From NCBI GenBank assembly GCA_947647735.1, contig CANSLJ010000032.1:1-42589 (forward strand): a stretch of DNA of 42,589 bases, written 5' to 3'. Both the position numbers and the translations under genes were made by a program. This stretch comes from an uncultured bacterium (GTDB taxonomy: Bacteria > Bacillota > Clostridia > Lachnospirales > Lachnospiraceae). Below the pieces are notes generated by a model. It saw only the letters and a list, made by a program, of their open reading frames with translations, had not been told where the DNA came from and did not search any database. Positions 806 to 42,542 of the stretch are shown piece after piece (within the stretch, counting starts at the first letter, position 1; each line of letters begins with the position of its first letter).

Positions 806-1988
806 TTTTCAGTTCCCTCTCCTTTTCCAGTTTTTCGCTGTCATAGTGATATACAAAGAGCGGCCTGAGCCGGATCCCCTGCTCCTCATACCCGCAGACC
901 TCTGTGATCTCCAACACCTTCCGGCTTTTGTCCCGCATCCTGCCCAGATGAATGATAATATCCAGCGCGGATGCGATCTGCTGCCGGATCGCCGCCACCG
1001 GCAGATCCATTCCCATCAGCACCATAGTCTCCAGCCTGCTGATCAGATCCGCCGCACTGTTGGAGTGCCCGGTGGAGATGGAACCGTCATGCCCCGTATT
1101 CATCGCCTGCAGTAAGTCCACCGCCTCCGCACCCCTGACTTCGCCCACAACGATCCTGTCCGGCCTCATCCGCAGGGCCGTCCTGATAAGATCCCGTATG
1201 GTGATGGGCAGACACCCCTCCGTATTGGCGTTCCTTGTCTCCAGTCTGACCAGATTTTCAATCGTATGAATCTGCAGTTCCGCACTGTCCTCAATCGTGA
1301 TCACCCTTTCTTCTCCGGGAATAAAGCCGGACAGCGCATTTAAAAATGTGGTTTTCCCGGAACCTGTTCCGCCGCTGATCATAATGTTATACCCTGACTT
1401 CACGAGTTTTTCCAGAAAGCGGCTGTGGCTCTCCTGCAATGCCCCGAGCTCTATCAGCTTATCCATATCCATAGGCTTTTCAGAAAACTTCCGGATCGTG
1501 ACGATCGGCCCGTTCAGGGCGATAGGTTTCAGTACCACATTTACCCGGGAGCCGTTCTCCAGCCTGGCGTCCACGATCGGCGCAGCTTCATTAACGGCTC
1601 GATTGCATCCCGCTACTATCTGCTGGATGATATTGTTCAGCTTTTCCTCCGAATCAAATCCGTTTTCCCATCGGGATATCCACCCGTCCTGCTCGATAAA
1701 AATATGATCCTTTCCATTGATCATGATCTCCGTTATCTTCGGATCCTCTATCAGCTCCTGCAGGATATCAAGCTGGCGCATGGAACGGAATATCTCTCTT
1801 CTCATCTGTTTTCGCTCTTCCAGCCAGAGCCCCTGCCTCAGTGCGGTCTCATGAATCTTCTCATCGATCAGCTCCAGCAGCTCCTCCTCCTTCAACTCCC
1901 TTGAAAAGTCAAGTTCCTTCAACAGTTCCTGCTGTATCGCCTTTCTGATATCCACATAAAGATCTTTTCTCTTTTTCCTGTTTTCCAT
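765..1988 (-). CDS. cpaF: CpaF/TadA-family pilus assembly ATPase
   Basis: A 407-residue secretion ATPase of the VirB11/CpaF group that powers pilin polymerisation at the membrane platform. Residues 1-75 form a charged helical N-domain. The Walker A loop GGTGSGKTT lies at 206-214, an Asp-box (TIEDSAELQ) near 231-239, and Walker B (RIVVGEVRG) near 278-286. A His-box (TGHDGSISTGHSNS) follows. All catalytic elements are present, so it should be active. GGGAGG precedes the ATG. It lies 12 bp after the CpaE-like gene and overlaps tadB. Confidence 0.93.
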   Translation of the reverse strand: MENRKKRKDLYVDIRKAIQQELLKELDFSRELKEEELLELIDEKIHETALRQGLWLEERKQMRREIFRSMRQLDILQELIEDPKITEIMINGKDHIFIEQDGWISRWENGFDSEEKLNNIIQQIVAGCNRAVNEAAPIVDARLENGSRVNVVLKPIALNGPIVTIRKFSEKPMDMDKLIELGALQESHSRFLEKLVKSGYNIMISGGTGSGKTTFLNALSGFIPGEERVITIEDSAELQIHTIENLVRLETRNANTEGCLPITIRDLIRTALRMRPDRIVVGEVRGAEAVDLLQAMNTGHDGSISTGHSNSAADLISRLETMVLMGMDLPVAAIRQQIASALDIIIHLGRMRDKSRKVLEITEVCGYEEQGIRLRPLFVYHYDSEKLEKERELKNVAKLQAAGLLSL

Positions 1989-2000
1989 TTCTTTCCTCCC

Positions 2001-3002
2001 CTATAAAAGTCCGTCTTCCTTCAACTGTTTTTCCACGTGATCCGCCAGTTCACTGCGGCATAAATGCTCCAGGTTAAGGGGCAGATTTTTAAAGACCGGC
2101 ATCCTGCATTCCCTTGTCTTTTCAAGGATATCCCGGTGGGCCTCCTGCTCCAGCATCAGCTCGTACTGCGCCAGCTTCGCTCTCGCCATACGGTCATCCC
2201 TGATCAGCGTATAGATTTTGTCACAGCTTCCCAGCAGGGAGTACACGCCTCGCACCTGCTCTGTCAGATCAAGTAGCACCGCCTCATATCCGCCGCTCTC
2301 CGCAATCCCGGTAATAACAGAGAGCCATTCCTCCTCCTGAATATCCCGGAAGTCCTCGTAGGAACTCGCCGGCGGAATATAATAGAGCCCCTCCAGTTCC
2401 TGCACGATGCTCTCCAGCTTGTACGAGAACTTCTCTCTGGCGCATCCGTAATAATAGAGCACATCCGTCAGGTTTCCCCCGAATCGTTTTCCGAGCAGTG
2501 TTTCAAACCCGGAAAAACACTCAAAATTCAAATACAGCGTTTTCTTCTTTTTTGCCAGAAGCTGTCCTGCCGTCAGGACAAAGGTTGTCTGCATGCAGCA
2601 GTGCAGCGGTGAATATACACCGATCAGCTGAAACATTCCCTTTTTTGCCCCCCGGAACGGCACTATCTTGTCCCCCTCCCCGTACACTCTCATGATCTCC
2701 CGGTATAGCTCTCCTGCCGGCTGAAATTTATTGACCGCCGCCACCTGCTTCGGCAGTGTTCCTTCCCCCTCCTGCAATACAAGAATCCGGTCAATCTCTT
2801 TCTCCTGCAGTTTCTCCTCATAATCCGGCTCTGAAATGATCAGAAGCGCAACTTTATTTTCATCGCAGAATTCCTGCAGGCTCTCGTTTTTCGTGAACCC
2901 GTGTATTTCAAACGGTAATTCTTTCTTTCCCTGAAACAGTGCGATCAGCTGATTCGTATAACCCGCCTGCCTGTCACAGATCGCCATGATCGGTTTTCCC
3001 AT
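2001..3002 (-). CDS. CpaE/TadZ-like pilus localisation protein with degenerate P-loop
   Basis: A 333-residue protein in the position of cpaE/tadZ, between the prepilin peptidase and cpaF. CpaE/TadZ proteins combine a receiver-like N-domain with a ParA/MinD-type ATPase and place the pilus machine in the cell. An N-domain of about 110 residues and a MinD-like C-domain (YLNFECFSGFETLLG, AVLLDLTEQ) can be recognised. The loop where Walker A should lie reads YSPLHCCMQTTFVL, without the usual glycines and lysine, so ATP binding is doubtful. GGAGGAG precedes the ATG. Assignment rests on context plus weak fold resemblance. Confidence 0.7.
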   Translation of the reverse strand: MGKPIMAICDRQAGYTNQLIALFQGKKELPFEIHGFTKNESLQEFCDENKVALLIISEPDYEEKLQEKEIDRILVLQEGEGTLPKQVAAVNKFQPAGELYREIMRVYGEGDKIVPFRGAKKGMFQLIGVYSPLHCCMQTTFVLTAGQLLAKKKKTLYLNFECFSGFETLLGKRFGGNLTDVLYYYGCAREKFSYKLESIVQELEGLYYIPPASSYEDFRDIQEEEWLSVITGIAESGGYEAVLLDLTEQVRGVYSLLGSCDKIYTLIRDDRMARAKLAQYELMLEQEAHRDILEKTRECRMPVFKNLPLNLEHLCRSELADHVEKQLKEDGLL

Positions 3003-3065
3003 CTTTTCTCCTCCTCTTTCAAAATATAAAATTTGATCTCAATTTCGGATTCCCCAAAAGCCATC

Positions 3066-3518
3066 TCAGCCTTTCAGGATGATTCCCTCAAACTGATAAC
3101 ACAAAACCGCCAGTAAAAATGCCGGTGCAAAATGGATAGCGGTCACTTTCCGTTTCTCCCTTTTTATCCTGTAGATCAGGATCAGCAGTATGCTTTCTGC
3201 CGCCGCTATAAAAAAAGTACTTACAATCACAAAAATCGCTTGTTTTGCCGGCAGAAACACGCCGGCCATAAGAAGGAGCTTACAATCCCCTGCTCCCAGG
3301 CCGCCCATCGCAAAGACGGGCCACAGACAAATAAAAAGAACGACAATTTCCAGTACCATAACCGGAATATCCCACAATGCTTCAGACATAATATCCAATA
3401 TGATCCTGAATACCGCACCGATCCCCATTCCCGAAAACACCAGCCGGTTGGGTATGATATCCTTACGCATGTCACACAATAACGCCGCCACAGCCAGCAA
3501 AATAAATATCACTGCCAT
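3066..3518 (-). CDS. A24-family prepilin peptidase (TadV/CpaA-like)
   Basis: A short (150-residue) membrane aspartyl protease that cleaves the leader of Flp-type pilins. The first catalytic region has D16 and D20 (DMRKDIIPNR). The second is the GxGD motif (GLGAGD, Asp78). About five hydrophobic segments span the protein. It lacks the N-terminal methyltransferase domain of PilD, as expected for the CpaA/TadV subgroup. It is the first gene of the visible Tad operon, about 240 bp after bofA, and GGGAG precedes its ATG. Confidence 0.9.
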   Translation of the reverse strand: MAVIFILLAVAALLCDMRKDIIPNRLVFSGMGIGAVFRIILDIMSEALWDIPVMVLEIVVLFICLWPVFAMGGLGAGDCKLLLMAGVFLPAKQAIFVIVSTFFIAAAESILLILIYRIKREKRKVTAIHFAPAFLLAVLCYQFEGIILKG

Positions 3519-3732
3519 GCAGGCTTCTCCCGCATCAAAACAAACTCATCACTCTCCTTCTCACCCTGCATCTTTATAAGATCCTGTATCCTTTTAAGTA
3601 TCCCTGGGAAATAAATTAAAAATAGAACGTCAGAAATATTTTCAGAAATCTCCCGATATGTCTTTCCAGTCCGAACGGACTTTTGAAGTAATTCCGATTA
3701 TATGAGGTTTTTTCCTGCCTGTCCAGTCCTTT

Positions 3733-3758
3733 TTTCACAAAAATTAATTTTTGTGAAA
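3733..3758 (-). terminator. Perfect 26-bp palindrome just after bofA
   Basis: The sequence is a perfect inverted repeat with arms TTTCACAAAAATT and AATTTTTGTGAAA, starting 3 nt after the bofA stop. Read along the minus strand it is followed by A residues rather than a T run. It could be a weak terminator, an mRNA-stabilising 3' hairpin or a binding site ahead of the tad operon. Confidence 0.45.
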
Positions 3759-3761
3759 TCT

Positions 3762-4037
3762 CTATACCATGCTCAGTATCTGAATACAGAAAAGCAATAA
3801 AAACCCCGGAATTCCGAGAAATCCGCATGTCAAAACCGTAAGCGGATTCAGCGCAATAATAGAAACAGCATTTTGTGTCAAAAAGAACTGGTTCATGCCA
3901 TAGATCAAAATGCCTCCCAGAACAGCCTGTACCAGAAACCTCAATACCATATTCGCTCTGCTTTTTAAGATCGCGATAAGTACCACAAAAGAAGTGATCA
4001 GCCCTATCATCCATTCCGTCTGTTCCAAATCTCTCAC
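3762..4037 (-). CDS. bofA: BofA-family protein (pro-sigma-K processing inhibitor homologue)
   Basis: A 91-residue membrane protein with three hydrophobic segments. The C-terminal signature LNPLTVLTCGFLGIPGFL matches the BofA family, which in Bacillus holds the SpoIVFB protease inactive in the forespore outer membrane until sigma-K is needed. In many clostridia bofA persists even where the rest of that checkpoint differs. A TTTAGGGAGGGGG ribosome site fixes the ATG at 4037. It is divergent from the yaaL homologue at 4171, and these two genes are neighbours in Bacillus as well. A 132-codon frame overlapping it in another phase is a shadow. Confidence 0.88.
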   Translation of the reverse strand: MRDLEQTEWMIGLITSFVVLIAILKSRANMVLRFLVQAVLGGILIYGMNQFFLTQNAVSIIALNPLTVLTCGFLGIPGFLLLFCIQILSMV

Positions 4038-4170
4038 CCCCTCCCTAAAATATATGCGCCGGCTTTTCCATTATGAACGCAAAATAAATGCCGTGAAATT
4101 TTTTCATCTGGAATAAATTCCCAAAAGGGTGCCTATACTTATATTAGATCATTGATATGGAGGTAGCTGT

Positions 4171-4461
4171 ATGAAATCTTTTTTCAGTCACACTACATAT
4201 GCGGCTGATGAAACAGAACTGTCCGGCAGGGACAATGACGAGAAACGTCTGCTGAACGATCTGAAACTTACCCGGACAGAACTGGAAATTGCCTATTCGG
4301 GCTTTGATAATGTGACAGATCCCGATCTGATAGACTGCTATATCTACAAAGTAAACGCAGTCCTGAAGCGTTACAAATTTTTGATGGAAAAAGCTGCTGA
4401 GCTGAACATTATAAAGGCAGCGGATTTCACACCGCTGCCAAAGGAAGATCTTCCAAATTAA
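4171..4461 (+). CDS. YaaL-like DUF2508 protein
   Basis: A 96-residue soluble protein with the DUF2508/YaaL pattern: a leading helix with LLNDLKLTRTELEIAYSGFD, then DPDLIDCYIYKVNAVLKRYKFL. Family function is unknown, but it is usually beside bofA or recR, which fits the divergent bofA here. GGAGGTAGCTGT precedes the ATG. Its stop codon lies 2 bp from the convergent FliS-like gene, leaving no room for a separate terminator. Confidence 0.82.
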   Translation: MKSFFSHTTYAADETELSGRDNDEKRLLNDLKLTRTELEIAYSGFDNVTDPDLIDCYIYKVNAVLKRYKFLMEKAAELNIIKAADFTPLPKEDLPN

Positions 4462-4463
4462 AC

Positions 4464-4940
4464 TCAGACTAAAAAGCCTCTGCTGCCCGCGGGCTGCGCT
4501 ACGCTCTCCACAAGAGAACCCTTTCCGTAGGTCAGCCCCGCATAGATCTGCTGCGTATTGTCCATGACCGGTTCAAAGGAGCCGGTCTTTTCCAGTTCCA
4601 GATACGCATCCCGCAATCTGGTCAAAATACTCACCGGCTGAGAAAGCGGCTCCGCCGAAGAAGAGATGACGGCATTTGCCATCTCTTTGTGCATGTACAG
4701 ATACAATGCGTACAGCGCAGGCGCGGGCTCATATTTCATATCAAGAGAATTTATCAGTTCCATCAGGCAGTCCTGCGCGTGATGGATCTCCAGCACGAAT
4801 CTTCTTTCCTGCTGTGCCTCAAGCGCTTTCCCGGCATCCTCCAGATATATCAGCGTCATATCATAGAGGATCGTGATCATGGAGACCGGATTTGCCTGTG
4901 CGATCCGCCTCGCAAATTCTTTTTTTAATTCATCCTTCAT
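4464..4940 (-). CDS. FliS-like flagellar export chaperone
   Basis: A 158-residue, mostly helical protein directly downstream of flagellin. Its N-terminal part (FARRIAQANPVSMITILYDM) and helical register (HHAQDCLMELINSLDMKY) match FliS, which binds the C-terminal tail of unpolymerised flagellin and holds it for export. It is somewhat longer than typical FliS (120-140 residues), with an extra C-terminal tail of about 30 residues that is poorly conserved and may be disordered. It lies 27 bp from flagellin and is probably co-transcribed. Confidence 0.75.
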   Translation of the reverse strand: MKDELKKEFARRIAQANPVSMITILYDMTLIYLEDAGKALEAQQERRFVLEIHHAQDCLMELINSLDMKYEPAPALYALYLYMHKEMANAVISSSAEPLSQPVSILTRLRDAYLELEKTGSFEPVMDNTQQIYAGLTYGKGSLVESVAQPAGSRGFLV

Positions 4941-4967
4941 ATGTCACTCCAGCCTTCCCCGCCTGAT

Positions 4968-6254
4968 CTACTGCAATAACTGCAGTACCTGAGACGGCCG
5001 TTCATTAGCCTGCGCCAGAACAGATGTACTCGCCTGAGAAAGAACCTGATAGGTTGCATATATCGTATATTCCTCAGACATATCCGTATCGATGATGCCG
5101 GAGTATGCCGCTGTCATATTCTCATGGTTGACCTCGTTGCTCTCCACAACAGATTCCAGACGGTTCTGGTATGCGCCCAGTTTACTGCGGATGGAGGACA
5201 GCTTATCGATAGCCGCGCTGACCTTTTCGATGGTGTACAGAGAATCCTCCTTCGTCCTCGTGTTGATGTTCTGGATCTCCAGCCCCTGAACACCGACTTC
5301 CGGAATCTCCACATCCAGCTCCTGTCCCTCGTTTGCGCCGACCTGAATAGTCATGGGGCCCATGCCGGTCAACTCCACTTTAATCTTCTGGCTGCCGTCC
5401 GCCGCGGCTGTCACAGATCCCGGGAACCCTTCCCTGACATCAAGATTTATCTTAAATCCCGCCTCGTTCTCCAGTGTGATCACGGATCCGTTTACAGCGG
5501 ACACCACGGTATCCACAGTATTTCCGTCCGGACAGGTTACCGGAATCTTGATATCACTCTTATTGGGCACTTTCACCGTCTCGGTAAACCCATCCGGAAA
5601 AACCGTCCCCGGCGCCGCCGCTTTTGTCGTGTCAACCGGATCCGCGCGGACTTCCACCTGAGGGTTATTCGCCGGATCAGGCGTCGTAAAAGCTTCCTCG
5701 ATCAGATTGCCTTTTACATCATACAGATCTTTATTATCAAACGCGCTCAGGTCAAACTCATAGAACCCGATCGCCATATCCTCGCCGTATCCCGCCACCT
5801 TCACATTGATATTATCAGTATACCCCTTCAACTGGAAGGAACCATCCAGAAGCTTTTGCCCGTTAAACTCAAAAGTCTCCGCTGTACGCTGTATCTCCTC
5901 CTTCAGCTTCTGCACTTCCTCGTCCACAAGCTCCCTGTCCCCGTCGGACAGCGTACCTGTCGATCCTTTGATCGCAAGTTCGTTAATTCTCTGCAGCATA
6001 TCATGGACTTCAGAGAGGGCGCCGTCCACCGCCTTCAAGATGTTGACACCTGTGTCAGAATTGTCCCTTGCCTGCATCAGCCCCTCCAGCTGGGCACGCA
6101 TCTTTCTGGACATCGCGTAACCGGACGGATCGTCCTTCGCCCTGTTGATCTTATAGCCGGAACTTAACTTTCCTGTGGATACAGACAGATTCTGATCATT
6201 CACATTCAGTCTGTTCACTGCCATCATCGCTGTCGCGTTATAATTAATTCTCAT
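4968..6254 (-). CDS. Flagellin
   Basis: A 428-residue filament subunit. The conserved D0/D1 N-domain covers residues 1-170 (MRINYNATAMMAVNRL, LSSGYKINRAKDDPSGYAMS), and a D1/D0 C-domain covers about 325-428, ending ASTSVLAQANERPSQVLQLL. The middle (about 175-320) is a variable surface domain rich in beta-type sequence, including PDPANNPQVE and VPNKSDIKIPV. There is no signal peptide, as expected for type III export. AAAGGAAAAAGT precedes the ATG, and a hairpin sits in the leader. Whether it is the only flagellin in the genome cannot be seen. Confidence 0.96.
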   Translation of the reverse strand: MRINYNATAMMAVNRLNVNDQNLSVSTGKLSSGYKINRAKDDPSGYAMSRKMRAQLEGLMQARDNSDTGVNILKAVDGALSEVHDMLQRINELAIKGSTGTLSDGDRELVDEEVQKLKEEIQRTAETFEFNGQKLLDGSFQLKGYTDNINVKVAGYGEDMAIGFYEFDLSAFDNKDLYDVKGNLIEEAFTTPDPANNPQVEVRADPVDTTKAAAPGTVFPDGFTETVKVPNKSDIKIPVTCPDGNTVDTVVSAVNGSVITLENEAGFKINLDVREGFPGSVTAAADGSQKIKVELTGMGPMTIQVGANEGQELDVEIPEVGVQGLEIQNINTRTKEDSLYTIEKVSAAIDKLSSIRSKLGAYQNRLESVVESNEVNHENMTAAYSGIIDTDMSEEYTIYATYQVLSQASTSVLAQANERPSQVLQLLQ

Positions 6255-37666: not shown

Positions 37667-39127
37667 TTATTGTTTTGTTATATACTTCTGTAACCTGCTT
37701 TGCGGTTTCTCTGGTATCGTATATGCCAGCTTACCACTTTCTAATAATGGCTTAAGAAGAGTTCTTGTCATATAGGTCAAGTTCTTATATCCCGTATGTT
37801 CTGAAATCTCTTTTTTGCTTCTCGCTATTTTGCAAAATTCAAGAATCTTTTCTGCAGCTGCATCTCCTCTGACTTGGTCACTGACTTGGTCACTGACTTG
37901 GTCACTGACTTGGTCACTACTCTTTGGGCCTGATTTCATTGTTGCAGTTTCATTCAGTGGAATCACTGTTTTAAATACATCTCCCTCTACAAACTGTGGA
38001 ACCCCACCAGAATACAATTTGGTAAATTTATAAGTATTGCGCATTCCAGAACCCAGCTCATCCGCAAGACCAATCTCCCTAAACACTTTAGAGACTGCGG
38101 GATTCTTAGGGAATGGCTCAAATGTATTCAAATCGAGACTTCCATATCCATGCGTTCTGTTACTGTTTTCCGCATATATCCGTTCTTTTTCAATTACCAT
38201 TTTGGCTACATAACCGCTTGAATAGTCTCTGTGTGCCAAACTGTTAGATATAATTTCCCTTAAAATTGCATCTCTAGCACTAACAGACTGCATTCCATCT
38301 AAGACAAATGGATCGCTTAAATGCTTTTTAGCAAACTCACTCATTCTGTCATAGCTGTCCAATAAATTGGTGACTATCACATCTCTATCATCATATCTAT
38401 CCAGATTCTGTACTCGGAAAATCATATCCGTTTTATGCTGCGGAAGTGCTGACATAATAGTTGTGTCTTTTCCAAACAGCAGGATGGCAGCCAGTGTAAT
38501 TCCTTCTCTTCTACTTTCACGATCCAGCAAAATAAGTCCTGCACTTCTTAACAGTTCCTCATCGTCCATTGACAGCCAAGGATGATTGTTACTTCTTGCA
38601 CGAGTCATTTTTCTGGCCCGCTCTATTAAGTCCGATCGCAGTACATCCATTCCCCATTCCGGAAATACCTTATTTACAAAATATGTTCCCTGTTTTCTTG
38701 CATACAGTTTATACACAAGTTCTTCATTATCCGTAATATCAATATCTGACTCGTTATTTCTATCATATATACGCCCAGAACATCTGCTTACCTGCGTACC
38801 GACGGGCACATAAATATGCAGAATTTTTCTTTCCTGAATCTCATATTCCACCGGTGTTAAAAATAGTGGTGGATACATTTTGTTTGCATTATTAATTGCA
38901 GTCACAAAATCTTTTTTCATTTTTTCAGTACAACCGGGGGCTATGCCAAGTATCTCCCCATTATCTTTCACACCTAAGAAAATGTGACCACCATCTCTAT
39001 TAGAAAATGCACAGACACTTTCATAAACGTCCTTCGTGATATCTGTTGTGGATTTCTTGAACTCAGTCGTATGACATTCGCCTTTTTCGATAACTTCCAG
39101 TAATTCTTTTTCGTTCAATTCTTTCAC
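37667..39127 (-). CDS. AlbA_2 (Schlafen-like) and HATPase_c_4 putative transcriptional regulator
   Basis: A 486-residue protein. The AlbA_2 domain (residues 15-130: CHTTEFKKSTTDITKDVYESVCAFSN, GGHIFLGVKDNGEILG) is a putative nucleic-acid-binding domain related to Schlafen. An HATPase_c_4-type region follows (DAILREIISNSLAHRDYSSG; EIGLADELGSGMRN). A perfect SDQV repeat near residues 404-420 precedes a C-terminal winged helix (KKEISEHTGYKNLTYMTRTLL). The GTG at 39127 has no spaced ribosome site. A TTG at 39118 has AGGAG 8 nt upstream and may be the true start. Often found in mobile or defence islands. Confidence 0.85.
   Translation of the reverse strand: MKELNEKELLEVIEKGECHTTEFKKSTTDITKDVYESVCAFSNRDGGHIFLGVKDNGEILGIAPGCTEKMKKDFVTAINNANKMYPPLFLTPVEYEIQERKILHIYVPVGTQVSRCSGRIYDRNNESDIDITDNEELVYKLYARKQGTYFVNKVFPEWGMDVLRSDLIERARKMTRARSNNHPWLSMDDEELLRSAGLILLDRESRREGITLAAILLFGKDTTIMSALPQHKTDMIFRVQNLDRYDDRDVIVTNLLDSYDRMSEFAKKHLSDPFVLDGMQSVSARDAILREIISNSLAHRDYSSGYVAKMVIEKERIYAENSNRTHGYGSLDLNTFEPFPKNPAVSKVFREIGLADELGSGMRNTYKFTKLYSGGVPQFVEGDVFKTVIPLNETATMKSGPKSSDQVSDQVSDQVSDQVRGDAAAEKILEFCKIARSKKEISEHTGYKNLTYMTRTLLKPLLESGKLAYTIPEKPQSRLQKYITKQ
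37869..37916 (-). repeat. Four perfect 12-bp tandem repeats
   Basis: CTGACTTGGTCA (plus strand) occurs four times without a mismatch and encodes SDQV repeats in the linker of the AlbA_2 protein. The 12-bp unit keeps the frame, so copy number can change without breaking the gene. Confidence 0.95.
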
Positions 39128-39345
39128 TCCTGCGTTTTTAATTTATCCATTAAAACAGCATTATAACTTTCTAAATTTGCAAGCACTAATAACTTCTTTG
39201 GTGACATCATTGTAAAGGTGTTTGCTCTTGCCTGCTTTTTAATTCCCTAGAATTCGAGGGGATTAAAATCTGGATTATGAAACAGACCCATAATACCAAT
39301 ATCCATCCCATCTGCATGGATTGTTTCCTTAACTATTTTTCCCAT
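39124..39345 (-). pseudogene. KilA-N domain gene remnant
   Basis: A 74-codon frame with an in-frame TAG at 39247-39249. The translated pieces NPDFNPLEF, GIKKQARANTFTMMSPKK and LANLESYNAVLMDKL match the KilA-N pattern (found in phage antirepressors and bacterial mobile elements), but the N-terminal half is missing. A GGGGGG ribosome site precedes the ATG at 39345. Its stop overlaps the GTG of the AlbA_2 gene. Confidence 0.6.
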
Positions 39346-39380
39346 TGTCCCCCCTTATAATCACAATATAACTTTCTTGC

Positions 39381-39554
39381 TCATTTTACAGACACATCCA
39401 AAAGCACCTCTCCTCGTTCTTCAAACCCTACCTTCACATTGATATGAATATCTGGTGATTTGTTTATGAAAATTACAACCGTCTCCATGTGGCTCAATTG
39501 CTCCAGATTGATGTCAAGACTCCGTTCCCAATGCCTCTTGTAATTTCTAAACAT
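39381..39554 (-). CDS. Short uncertain ORF or gene fragment
   Basis: From the ATG at 39554 the frame encodes a 57-residue peptide ending with IFINKSPDIHINVKVGFEER. It looks protein-like but I do not recognise it. The same frame runs further upstream through the SEC-C gene, where it is only a shadow. It may be another fragment in this debris. Confidence 0.3.
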   Translation of the reverse strand: MFRNYKRHWERSLDINLEQLSHMETVVIFINKSPDIHINVKVGFEERGEVLLDVSVK

Positions 39555-39708
39555 GAGAAGCGGTTTTTGCTGTGAAAGCATCTTCAATATTCGCTTTTTC
39601 CGTTTCCTTAAATGTTCCGCCGATGTGCAATGTCCGGTTATGAAGCGGATGATTCTTATATTTCTTTCCACTTCCATAAGGCCATGGATCGTTTCTTCCA
39701 ATCTTCAT
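39547..39708 (-). CDS. Small degenerate SEC-C motif protein
   Basis: A 53-residue frame: IGRNDPWPYGSGKKYKNH corresponds to the SEC-C zinc motif (usually NDPCPCGSGKKYKxCC/H), but both leading cysteines are Trp/Tyr and the second pair is Asn-His, so zinc binding should be lost. AAGGGCG precedes the ATG, which lies 13 bp past the DUF4268 stop. It may be a decaying tail of a larger protein. Confidence 0.55.
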   Translation of the reverse strand: MKIGRNDPWPYGSGKKYKNHPLHNRTLHIGGTFKETEKANIEDAFTAKTASHV

Positions 39709-39721
39709 CAAGGCGCCCTTC

Positions 39722-40036
39722 CTATGACTGCGTTATATACGGAACAATCACATCGTAAAATCTTTTTGTCCAGTCAGCGTGGAAGTTCGCCATCTGGAGC
39801 CAGTCCGTTTCATTCTCAATACTGACATTACTCAACTGAATAAACACCTTGGACGACTTGATATCATCGCTGCGGTTCCACTGAAGTGTCATGCCCAGTG
39901 CCGATTCGATTTCTTCTTTATGTATATAAAGGCTATCGAAGGCATCCTTATTTTCCTGTTTATTTCCTCTGTCAAATACAACTTCTGCCCGTGCCGCACC
40001 ATAATTTGCTACGCAGCATAGCATCTTCTTCGTCAC
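39722..40036 (-). pseudogene. Truncated DUF4268 protein
   Basis: A 104-residue frame (GTG start) matching the C-terminal part of DUF4268: ANYGAARAEVVFDRGNKQENKDAFDSLY, HKEEIESALGMTLQWNR and VSIENETDWLQM. The first third of that domain is absent and an in-frame TAA lies just upstream. DUF4268 proteins are often linked to nucleases or restriction-like systems, so this is probably a leftover from a defence gene. A short product could still be made. Confidence 0.65.
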
Positions 40037-40051
40037 AACTTACTCTCTTCT

Positions 40052-40068
40052 CCCCAGCATAGCTGGGG
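40052..40068. repeat. GC-rich hairpin at the DUF4268 truncation point
   Basis: CCCCAGC-ATA-GCTGGGG is a perfect 7-bp stem with a 3-nt loop in otherwise AT-rich DNA, 36 bp past the stop of the 190-residue gene and just before the broken DUF4268 frame. It could be the terminator of the three-gene operon (without T run) or a recombination scar. Confidence 0.5.
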
Positions 40069-40104
40069 GATTAGCGTCTTCATTTATACCAAGTTTTCAA
40101 AACA

Positions 40105-40677
40105 TCATTTACGCTTAATTCCAATTGTCAATTCATCAAGCATTCCGAATACCAATTCAAAATTATGTTGAAATTTTGGTGAAATATTATAACTAGCATC
40201 TTCCTTGCTCGAAGATAAACCTAAATATTCATCAATTTCTTTTTCTTGAACTCTATCTCCTGGTTTACATGCAATGGTATTATACCACGACTTAATTTCT
40301 ACTATATCTAAATCTTGCCTCATTTTATTAACATATTTTACAATTTCCTCACCCATTTCAGAAATTTGCGAGTAAGTAGATTTCTTACAATTTATTTTGA
40401 ATTCTGCTCCTTTGTCATCTGCTGCATTTATTTCGTATTTTTCCCAATCAATTTCAAAATAAATTTCACCCACAATTTCATTATTTCTATTGTAATAACG
40501 AAGAGTAATTTTCTTAATGTACTGCTTATCTAATATTCCTTTTCTTATTGTTTCTAAGCAAATAGAATTTGCTCCAAATTGCTCTGCCAACTCATATATG
40601 ACCATATACAAAATGTTTAATCTAGGTTTTACCACTACATCTAATCCTGTGTCAATTCCAGTTTTTACTTCTAACAT
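40105..40677 (-). CDS. Third gene of novel operon: 190-residue protein, possibly HORMA-like
   Basis: A 190-residue protein that I cannot firmly place. Residues 20-47 are helical (LNILYMVIYELAEQFG). Then a strand pair with YIKKITLRYYNRNNEIVGEI and FEIDWEKYEI (53-83), a helix (ISEMGEEIVKYVNKMRQDL), and a long less-ordered tail to a final strand. Helix, beta-hairpin with an IDW phrase, helix and a long C-terminal tail recall bacterial HORMA proteins, but the match is weak. AGGAGGGAGG precedes the ATG, which overlaps the AAA+ gene by 7 bp, so the two are translationally coupled. Confidence 0.55.
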   Translation of the reverse strand: MLEVKTGIDTGLDVVVKPRLNILYMVIYELAEQFGANSICLETIRKGILDKQYIKKITLRYYNRNNEIVGEIYFEIDWEKYEINAADDKGAEFKINCKKSTYSQISEMGEEIVKYVNKMRQDLDIVEIKSWYNTIACKPGDRVQEKEIDEYLGLSSSKEDASYNISPKFQHNFELVFGMLDELTIGIKRK

Positions 40678-41564
40678 TTTGACCTCCCTCCTACTGTTTG
40701 AACTCTATATTCTGATTTGCGAATTTCCGCAAGCCTCTTGATTGTATCTATCTCCACAAATCTCCTATCATAAAGGCTCAAATCATTATTGAACTTCTTG
40801 ATTATTTCATATAAATCTGCAAACGTCTCTTCTTTTATATATTCTTCTATCATATCTGTATAAATATCATTCTTCAATTCCCCAAAAAAAGATAGTGACT
40901 CGTTAATATTTTCTTCTACAAATTCCCGGAATTCTGTAGATACTCCTCCAATCAAAATATCATTATACATTTGATATATAAGTCTGCTCTTTTGCCCTTT
41001 CGACGGTTCCCATTTAAATAACTTCATTCTTCCATCTCTGGTCAGTGGTGAATATAACTGATCAAACGTATTGGCGATTAATATAAAAGGAATTTTTTTG
41101 CCAGGGGTAGCTTTAGTTGTATCAGCTATACTCATTAAATAATCAGTTAATATTTGTGAATTAACTGTTTTTGAAATGTTTTCATCACATGATGCAATAC
41201 TCAAATGAAAATCGTCAATTATAATTACACTAAAACTATCTTCTTTATCGTGTTCTAGAAGGTAATTGTAAGTAGCCTCTAACTTTTTTATAGAATCTCC
41301 TTCTAAATTTCCTGCCAGTTGTGAACTTGAAAAATAATATGGATGAATGCCATGTTTAAAACAGGCATTAATTGTCTGAACAGTTTTTCCTTCACCCATT
41401 TTACCTTCTATGGCCAAAAAACAGGAAGACAAATTCTTTTGCAAAGAATTTGTTACAATGTGTAATAAAACATTTCTCTCAAATTCTTTATCAAGAAATA
41501 TAACATTCATATTCTGTCTATCCCTTGCCGGCTTTAATTCTTTCGGTTTAAATGTAATATCCAT
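40671..41564 (-). CDS. Rubisco-activase-like AAA+ ATPase of novel operon
   Basis: A 297-residue AAA+ ATPase. Walker A is EGKMGEGKT (residues 53-61) and Walker B is VIIIDDFH (113-120). The second region of homology reads ANTFDQLYSPLTRDGRMKLFKWEP (arginine finger Arg179). The phrase Y-x-PL-x-RDGRM-x-F-W is the hallmark of Rubisco activase-type AAA+ proteins, which remodel a bound protein partner. No Rubisco is expected in this organism, so it probably remodels a neighbour gene product. GGAGG lies 11 nt before the ATG, and only 2 bp separate it from the preceding gene. Confidence 0.85.
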   Translation of the reverse strand: MDITFKPKELKPARDRQNMNVIFLDKEFERNVLLHIVTNSLQKNLSSCFLAIEGKMGEGKTVQTINACFKHGIHPYYFSSSQLAGNLEGDSIKKLEATYNYLLEHDKEDSFSVIIIDDFHLSIASCDENISKTVNSQILTDYLMSIADTTKATPGKKIPFILIANTFDQLYSPLTRDGRMKLFKWEPSKGQKSRLIYQMYNDILIGGVSTEFREFVEENINESLSFFGELKNDIYTDMIEEYIKEETFADLYEIIKKFNNDLSLYDRRFVEIDTIKRLAEIRKSEYRVQTVGGRSKC

Positions 41565-41566
41565 AT

Positions 41567-42421
41567 TTAATATTCCTCCCCATTATATTTAATTACATCT
41601 CCTTCTAATTGCTTTTCTAACAACGCTGTCAAAAATGCTTCTACTTCTTCCTTAGAACCTGCCTCGCATTTCTCGAAATCCATACAGACTCCCGGTGCAA
41701 AAACATGAAATGGTTCAGAATATAAAAATGTATGTTCATACATCGCTTTTAGCTTATAATTTCCAGTCTTAGTAAAAACAAGATTATCAAAGCACACTAT
41801 TCCTTCTTTATTCGTGTCCTTTACTCTTGTCCCCGTCCAACTCACACCATCTCTGTTTATATCTAATTGTATTTGCAAATTTTCAGCCTTGGAACCTGAC
41901 TGATATACAGCCTGCACAACCACCTTATTTAATACTTCTTTAGAAGCAACATCTTGTGGTTGACTTATGAATTTCAGTTTCACGGGATTATCTTTAACTA
42001 CTATTAAGTCTTTATAAACAACTCCTTCTGTTCCTTTAATACAAAACCTATGATTTCCTGCCTCTTTAATCTGGATATTATGAAATGAAACTACACCGTC
42101 TTTGTCCGTCTTTTTTATTACAGGACCATATATATTTTCAATACTAAACTCAATATCTGAAAAGGGAGCCGGGGTACCATCTGTAAATTCAACTTTTACA
42201 ACTATATCTTCAACTAATTCGTTTGCATATATATTATTAATACCACTAAGAATATCTATCTTTCCTATTTTCTTAGTGCTATTATTTCCATAATTATTTA
42301 CATACACATTTACAGATTGTCCTTTATCTTCTTTACCACTCTCTTTCCCTTTTGAGTAATATGTAAATGACAGTGTAATTTTAGATATTATCTTTCCCAA
42401 AAATTTTAAAAATTTAATCAT
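41567..42421 (-). CDS. Two-Ig-domain protein with amphipathic N-terminus, first gene of novel operon
   Basis: A 284-residue protein. Residues 1-22 (MIKFLKFLGKIISKITLSFT) form a basic amphipathic helix without a signal-peptidase site. A short linker with VNVYVNNYGNNS follows. Two bacterial Ig-like (Big-type) domains cover about 60-143 (VVKVEFTDGTPAPFSDI, KDGVVSFHNIQIKEAGNHRF) and 147-241 (LKFISQPQDVASKE, KEGIVCFDNLVFTKTGNYKL). A small acidic helical tail closes it. GAGGAGG precedes the ATG. Membrane association from the cytoplasmic side is suggested by the N-terminal helix, but export cannot be excluded. Confidence 0.75.
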   Translation of the reverse strand: MIKFLKFLGKIISKITLSFTYYSKGKESGKEDKGQSVNVYVNNYGNNSTKKIGKIDILSGINNIYANELVEDIVVKVEFTDGTPAPFSDIEFSIENIYGPVIKKTDKDGVVSFHNIQIKEAGNHRFCIKGTEGVVYKDLIVVKDNPVKLKFISQPQDVASKEVLNKVVVQAVYQSGSKAENLQIQLDINRDGVSWTGTRVKDTNKEGIVCFDNLVFTKTGNYKLKAMYEHTFLYSEPFHVFAPGVCMDFEKCEAGSKEEVEAFLTALLEKQLEGDVIKYNGEEY

Positions 42422-42443
42422 TGCTTTTCCTCCTCGTCAATTT

Positions 42444-42542
42444 CTAAGTGGTTTTCCATTCAAATTGTATCTTCTCTTGCGTTTTACTATGAACCATCTG
42501 ATTAATAAACACAAGATGCTCATTCGATAATGTTACTGTCAA
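42444..42542 (-). CDS. Possible short peptide or gene fragment upstream of the operon
   Basis: A 32-codon frame (TTG start) ends in QEKIQFEWKTT, 22 bp before the Ig-protein start. The open frame continues a few codons upstream to a TGA, so no longer gene joins it. It reads like the C-terminus of a protein and could be a fragment. Its first six bases (TTGACA) also look like a -35 element. Confidence 0.25.
   Translation of the reverse strand: MTVTLSNEHLVFINQMVHSKTQEKIQFEWKTT

Follow-up and report, generated by a model that had tools for sequence, protein, structure and literature searches.

Why does an uncultured Lachnospiraceae bacterium keep a relative of Rubisco activase (Rca), the Rubisco-repair motor of plants and cyanobacteria, in a compact operon with two genes of other kinds? 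The question is raised by contig C32 (CANSLJ010000032.1, 42,589 nt) of the 4.1-Mb assembly GCA_947647735.1, which is 86.6% complete; the whole contig was analysed and is called the window here. Three minus-strand open reading frames (ORFs) fill positions 40105-42421 of the window in the order gene 1, gene 2 (the ATPase) and gene 3:

41567..42421, minus strand: gene 1, 284 aa, with an amphipathic N-terminus, two tandem repeats that are putatively Ig-like and a conserved tail (ORF, repeat test, orthologues)
40671..41564, minus strand: gene 2, 297 aa, an AAA+ ATPase from the Rubisco activase clade (Pfam, PDB and control searches)
40105..40677, minus strand: gene 3, 190 aa, with a HORMA-like fold predicted at low confidence (models and weak profile tests)

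Genes 1 and 2 are separated by 2 bp, genes 2 and 3 overlap by 7 bp, and each of the three ATGs is preceded by a purine-rich stretch that resembles a ribosome site (read by eye). The tightly packed trio with one ribosome site per gene described in the original prediction, which was made from the sequence alone, is therefore present with all of its coordinates and junctions. The trio had also been called undescribed, and this description stands: beyond AAA, no family exceeded its cut-off in Pfam, NCBIfam or PHROGs, and PADLOC returned no match up to E 10 for any of the three proteins. No description of an operon of this type was found in the open literature (covered mostly without subscription papers and bioRxiv), and the matches listed for Rubisco activase paired with words beginning in HORMA were plant papers by title. 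The operon is genuine and conserved, and its motor is out of place.

A pattern scan with the ATPase across a collection of 84,980 species, which reaches close relatives only, yielded three more loci, all titled Lachnospiraceae (L003, L004 and L005). Their ATPases are 97%, 69% and 64% identical to that of the window over the best segment. Co-occurrence of the trio across genomes had been set beforehand as a check, and the three genes were found together in the same order, with gene 3 directly behind the motor gene, in 4/4 close loci including the window (gene 1 of L004 is truncated by the contig start). The gene 3 proteins of L004 and L005 share 74% identity with their window counterpart; the ATPases share 63-67% and the gene 1 proteins 49-51%. 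The ratio of nonsynonymous to synonymous changes (dN/dS) was 0.10-0.40 in 11 of the 12 comparisons (three genes, four pairs each): 0.19-0.40 for gene 1 (four pairs), 0.11-0.24 for gene 2 (four pairs) and 0.10-0.40 for gene 3 (three computable pairs of four), the twelfth value not being computable because synonymous sites were saturated. These ratios include several comparisons with dS >1, and the window-L003 pairs are based on 11-18 changes each. Judged by these values, the three genes look real and selectively kept. They are also rare. The ATPase occurs in 1/299 genomes of the family (its own only) and in 4/392 genomes of the order, its own included, and its profile was found in 3/398 genomes of the phylum, again including its own, the other two matches lying within ORFs of ~500 aa. 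Gene 3 was found in 1/398 genomes of the phylum and gene 1 in 1/260 genomes of the family, in both cases the source genome. No relative of the ATPase or of gene 1 was found in phage or plasmid records, none of gene 3 in plasmid records, and none was seen in the viral contigs scanned.

By its sequence, gene 2 is a member of the Rubisco activase clade. It matches Pfam AAA at 1.3e-10 and Rca in the PDB at 9.7e-23 by sequence and 3.8e-26 by profile, and the PDB matches at E 0.01 or better are three distinct sequences, all of them Rca. Three segments stand out:

41382..41405, minus strand: Walker A (residues 54-61), unchanged across the four close loci at every position but residue 55
41211..41225, minus strand: Walker B (residues 114-118), with Asp-Asp at its end and no change across the four close loci
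41025..41057, minus strand: LYSPLTRDGRM, an Rca-type arginine segment, residues 170-180

The last of these corresponds to LYAPLIRDGRM of solved Rca. The Rca helical domain (PF21228) was matched at E 0.0017 with 19.0 bits, under its curated cut-off of 27 bits. With the profile of the window ATPase, Pch2/TRIP13 was absent from the PDB matches at E 0.01, and PADLOC, TRIP13 included, gave no match to the ATPase up to E 10. As controls we used the AAA+ motors of five plasmid HORMA operons, four from cyclic oligonucleotide-based antiphage signaling systems (CBASS) in which a cyclase is annotated and the fifth from Haloarcula. In the same PDB library Pch2/TRIP13 ranked first for these control motors (best 60 of 135 matches), and two of the five matched TRIP13 in PADLOC at 473 and 391 bits. 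The Rubisco large chain was not found in the source genome at its 86.6% completeness, with a positive control that rang in 5/14 genomes. Both the assignment of gene 2 as an Rca-type AAA+ ATPase and its lack of a Rubisco context, as first proposed, agree with these results. An argument based on a pore-loop tyrosine was dropped, since a review describes tobacco and Arabidopsis Rca as lacking the canonical pore motif (PMC5385338).

If the motor does not serve Rubisco, what might it act on? The adjacent gene 3 is unnamed by Pfam, NCBIfam, PHROGs and PADLOC, and PDB sequence searches gave no convincing match. We generated AlphaFold models of the window protein and, as a replicate, of its L005 orthologue, using an identical set of four sequences for the two. 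In each model a better-modelled core is composed of helix, helix, four strands and helix. Two segments of gene 3 are relevant:

40297..40641, minus strand: predicted HORMA-like core, residues 13-127 (two models, VIA-align)
40414..40542, minus strand: residues 46-88, aligned by a profile of bacterial HORMA and Mad2 to a strand pair (weak score)

When the top 1000 Foldseek matches per model were realigned with VIA-align, HORMA proteins made up 8 of the 9 best rows for the window model (Mad2 5.4, REV7 5.0) and 11 of the 12 best rows for the L005 model (Mad2 6.2, REV7 6.0); in entries of complexes (REV7 with partners, polymerase zeta) the chain was assigned to REV7 from title and length. Mad2 is a cell-division checkpoint protein. 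A bacterial CBASS HORMA protein, 6p8s, scored 5.1 against the L005 model (92 residues at 3.6 A); it is the bacterial HORMA entry among the matches listed for this model, and the non-listing of other entries excludes nothing.

A HORMA profile built from five plasmid HORMA proteins, 6p8s and one Mad2 fragment was compared with the third proteins of the window, L004, L005 and two distant loci described below (L006 and L008), with 116 other ORFs and with 400 shuffles of each. Scores were low, at 3.6-7.3 bits for the window (3.6 bits), L004 and L005. Nevertheless, few of their own shuffles reached these scores (5/400, 1/400 and 0/400, respectively) and only 2/116 ORFs, both of the Haloarcula HORMA operon, scored higher. 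The three proteins took places 20, 8 and 5 among 2121 pooled entries, with two pooled shuffles outscoring all three, and as orthologues they are non-independent tests. For the partners in L006 and L008, 10/400 and 287/400 of their own shuffles reached the score. The aligned segment of gene 3 is the strand pair that likewise links Mad2 with bacterial HORMA.

In several respects the support for a HORMA fold is weak. Mean pLDDT (predicted local distance difference test) is 56.1 for the window model and 53.6 for the L005 model, which is low confidence, and most of the C-terminal third lies below pLDDT 50, which limits what the models can say on a safety belt that would close on a peptide. Plain Foldseek gave no match at E 0.001 or better for either model and no HORMA protein among the 50 matches listed. 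The best unrelated VIA-align rows (4.4 and 5.2) are only 1.0 under the top and fall amid the lower HORMA rows, and the realignments are therefore suggestive and no proof. A direct comparison of the gene 3 family with the HORMA family by hhalign was not significant (P 0.14). Pairwise comparisons of gene 3 (window and L005) with five HORMA proteins were mixed, 1-285 of 500 shuffles scoring as high. The two HORMA models of PADLOC recognise two CBASS controls (53-283 bits), and gene 3 gave no match to them up to E 10. On how common the known bacterial HORMA family is in the phylum, the 0/119 genomes matched by PF18138 carry no weight, given that it also rang in 0/14 controls.

These results leave room for a second explanation, in which gene 3 encodes another alpha/beta adaptor or a substrate, not a HORMA protein, and would serve as adaptor to a motor that threads gene 1 or some outside target. 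The lack of a significant sequence or Foldseek match to HORMA is in line with it, and among the three proteins gene 3 shows the highest conservation, as would be expected of a core adaptor. Its difficulty is that HORMA proteins lead the VIA-align lists for two models from different orthologues and that the HORMA-profile scores of gene 3 exceed nearly all of its own shuffles; we consider this explanation rather unlikely. Together, the models and profile tests give suggestive support for a HORMA-like gene 3, and we estimate that it is likely, at about two in three, to be a HORMA-fold protein. The HORMA-like fold first suggested for gene 3 thus survives structure prediction at low model confidence, with HORMA proteins topping both realignments, whereas Foldseek and the direct profile comparison did not reach significance.

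Gene 1 contributes the candidate sensor and a possible binding segment, and can be divided as follows:

42368..42421, minus strand: N-terminal amphipathic stretch, residues 1-18, helical moment 0.51
41987..42265, minus strand: repeat 1 (residues 53-145), putatively Ig-like and the least conserved part, at 37-39% identity (three pairs)
41702..41986, minus strand: repeat 2 (residues 146-240), putatively Ig-like, at 48-55% identity (three pairs)
41570..41701, minus strand: C-terminal tail, residues 241-284, best kept (61-75% identity in three pairs)

Residues 53-145 and 146-240 form a tandem repeat, with a score of 85 in the window relative to 26 +/- 4.8 for shuffles; 0/1000 shuffles scored as high, and likewise for the gene 1 copies of L005 and L004. 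The helical moment of the N-terminal 18 residues was reached by 24/2000 shuffles for the window and by 19/2000 for L005, and in both proteins it is the third-highest of any stretch. Pfam yielded sub-threshold matches to beta-sandwich families and no curated Ig-like match. From the repeat pattern and these sub-threshold matches, the repeats are probably Ig-like beta-sandwiches. The amphipathic N-terminus and the two-domain layout of the original prediction were recovered, its Ig assignment being a reading of the repeat pattern and of these Pfam matches. We propose the well-kept tail as a binding segment that may resemble a closure motif.

More divergent motors were found in three further loci, L006, L007 and L008, at 25-27% identity to the window ATPase. 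In two of the three (L006 and L008) a small gene (181 or 168 aa) follows directly; none of the three shows an Ig-like gene, the L008 contig ending soon upstream; the gene upstream of the L006 motor has an N-terminus that is not clearly amphipathic (134/2000 shuffles as high). Kinship between gene 3 and the L006 partner appears weak (7, 39 and 3 of 1000 shuffles as high for the window, L004 and L005), and kinship with the L008 partner was not seen in the same shuffle test (548, 83 and 505 of 1000). The partners in L006 and L008 are similar to one another (0/1000 shuffles as high). If they are kin to gene 3, the motor and its small partner would form the older unit, with gene 1 as the part that varies. 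The L006 ATPase was found in 1/60 relatives of its genome, G426 (G426 itself), and the ATPase profile in 2/61 relatives of G485 (itself and G473). No relative was found for the L006 ATPase in phage records, nor for the L008 ATPase or the L006 partner in plasmid records; two megaplasmid proteins of 590-630 aa matched by the L006 ATPase have other surroundings and were set aside. At 28.2 bits vs 27, the L007 motor passes the Pfam threshold for the helical domain of Rca. It is encoded by a lone Rca-type AAA+ gene (G473:C4, 1390-2274) packed between purD-type and purC-type genes.

How might the three proteins work together? HORMA switches, from meiosis to CBASS, are to our knowledge known with one motor type, Pch2/TRIP13. 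Published work describes TRIP13 turning closed Mad2 into open Mad2 (PMC4439613), and a CBASS review describes a HORMA protein that binds the cyclase and TRIP13 reversing this binding (PMC10419184). Rca rings are described in two articles as pulling Rubisco segments through their pore by threading (PMC5437159, PMC5385338). By analogy, we tentatively propose, at somewhat short of an even chance, that the operon encodes a protein switch composed of an Rca-clade motor, a HORMA-like gene 3 protein and a gene 1 sensor or anchor. The gene 2 product would assemble into an AAA+ ring and remodel the gene 3 protein. The latter would adopt a HORMA-like fold and lock onto a short peptide, whose likeliest source would be the conserved tail of gene 1 acting as a closure motif. 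The N-terminus of gene 1 may sit on the membrane while its Ig-like repeats sense or scaffold. By recycling the gene 3 protein, the motor would keep the switch off until a trigger, after which a separate effector, such as a TIR protein in one relative, may act.

The genomic surroundings bear on this effector and on a possible role in defence. L005 carries a TIR_2 gene (9.8e-16) that is truncated at the start of the contig and stops 12 bp short of gene 1; this TIR gene, apparently in one operon with the trio of that relative, is new here. In L003, a recombinase gene precedes a leader shared with the window, and no TIR gene lies upstream. The region upstream of gene 1 is unreadable in the window and L004, and TIR was seen in 1/4 close loci; because the window is the entire contig, just 168 bases precede its gene 1. 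TIR_2 had no match in the source genome (the control rang in 4/14). In G426, a bSEFIR-like protein (190.8 bits) ends ~0.9 kb upstream of the distant motor-partner operon, the ORFs in between having no family match and appearing element-like by eye. The TIR and SEFIR neighbours support an immune reading without establishing it.

The same surroundings can be explained otherwise: the operon could be a housekeeping or element-maintenance device, acting for instance in the envelope or in conjugation, with TIR and SEFIR neighbours that are accidental in gene-dense islands. The single TIR locus, the element-like ORFs that separate the SEFIR gene of G426 from its pair, the IS21-type transposase genes that adjoin L004 and L005 (by eye) and the position of the L007 motor between purine synthesis genes would all fit such a device. 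The patchy spread of the ATPase within the family and order, and the distance of only 12 bp between the TIR gene and gene 1 of L005, argue against it, and we regard it as improbable. Returning to the switch, its boldest form, which we consider possible but doubtful, is that a HORMA switch was built twice: an Rca-clade motor, not Pch2/TRIP13, would open and recycle a HORMA protein, and this protein would hold the tail of an Ig-like sensor bound to the membrane and, in some hosts, restrain a TIR effector without a cyclic nucleotide. If true, the Rca clade would be a general protein remodeler outside carbon fixation, giving relatives of Rubisco activase a role without Rubisco. The pairing of a motor with HORMA would have arisen more than once, and a candidate TIR-linked immune module with no need for a cyclase would be added.

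The shared leader and several neighbouring genes were also recorded:

42422..42530, minus strand: leader directly upstream of gene 1, common to the window and L003 (boundary by eye)
39722..40036: downstream of the trio, a 104-aa ORF matching only the end of the DUF4268 and PDC-S11 models, probably a remnant
37667..39127: a Schlafen AlbA_2 protein in which a series of repeated SDQV units is followed by a Fic-like C-terminal domain

A promoter in the leader, sought by eye, was dropped, a scan of L003 780-3400 giving 12 sites vs 14.8 expected. Downstream of the trio in L003, a gene in two pieces (L003:3584-4570) has a start that appears SIR2-like by eye; the pieces had no Pfam or PADLOC family match. 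G426 also encodes, at L020:9687-10673, a weak Macro-like N-terminus (under cut-off) fused to a SEFIR/TIR domain. On a Haloarcula halophila plasmid (L031), an archaeal AAA+ operon at 1509-5274 carries a HORMA-like gene at 3363-3965, and the HORMA profile matched the hypothetical genes at 4289-4801 (63 bits) and 4798-5274 (14 bits).

Compared with known systems, the window motor shares with Rubisco activase the AAA+ clade and the Rca-type arginine segment; it differs in its sub-threshold helical domain, in a genome with no detected Rubisco large chain and in sharing an operon with Ig-like and HORMA-like genes. Mad2 and REV7 are the top structural rows for both predicted models of gene 3, which differs from them in having no significant sequence match and low-confidence models. 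Points in common with TIR defence such as Thoeris and with bSEFIR are the TIR gene in the apparent operon of L005 and the bSEFIR-like gene near the distant pair of G426, whereas the window operon has no visible TIR and its proteins lack PADLOC matches. The original prediction proposed an echo of CBASS with no cyclase visible, and no cyclase was seen at the locus: none among the six window proteins of 37667-42421 (Pfam, PADLOC), upstream of which the contig ends, and none near L003 or L005 (neighbours partly family-searched, the rest by eye). The proposed echo has to be corrected on two points: the motor does not belong to the TRIP13 type, and the CBASS of the source genome sits on a separate contig, C48. 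The cyclase there is the genome's one SMODS match over cut-off, and the C48 system (L026:3255-5998) comprises this cyclase, an E2-like gene with a SEC-C motif and a 4TM effector. From type III CBASS, the window operon differs in its Rca-type rather than TRIP13-type motor, in having no CD-NTase seen and in a gene 3 unmatched by the PADLOC HORMA models, and the four CBASS loci carry a hypothetical gene between motor and annotated HORMA. The two share an AAA+ motor gene packed against small genes, of HORMA type in CBASS and predicted to be HORMA-like in the window, and their motors align over 110 columns at 94.8% probability (hhalign).
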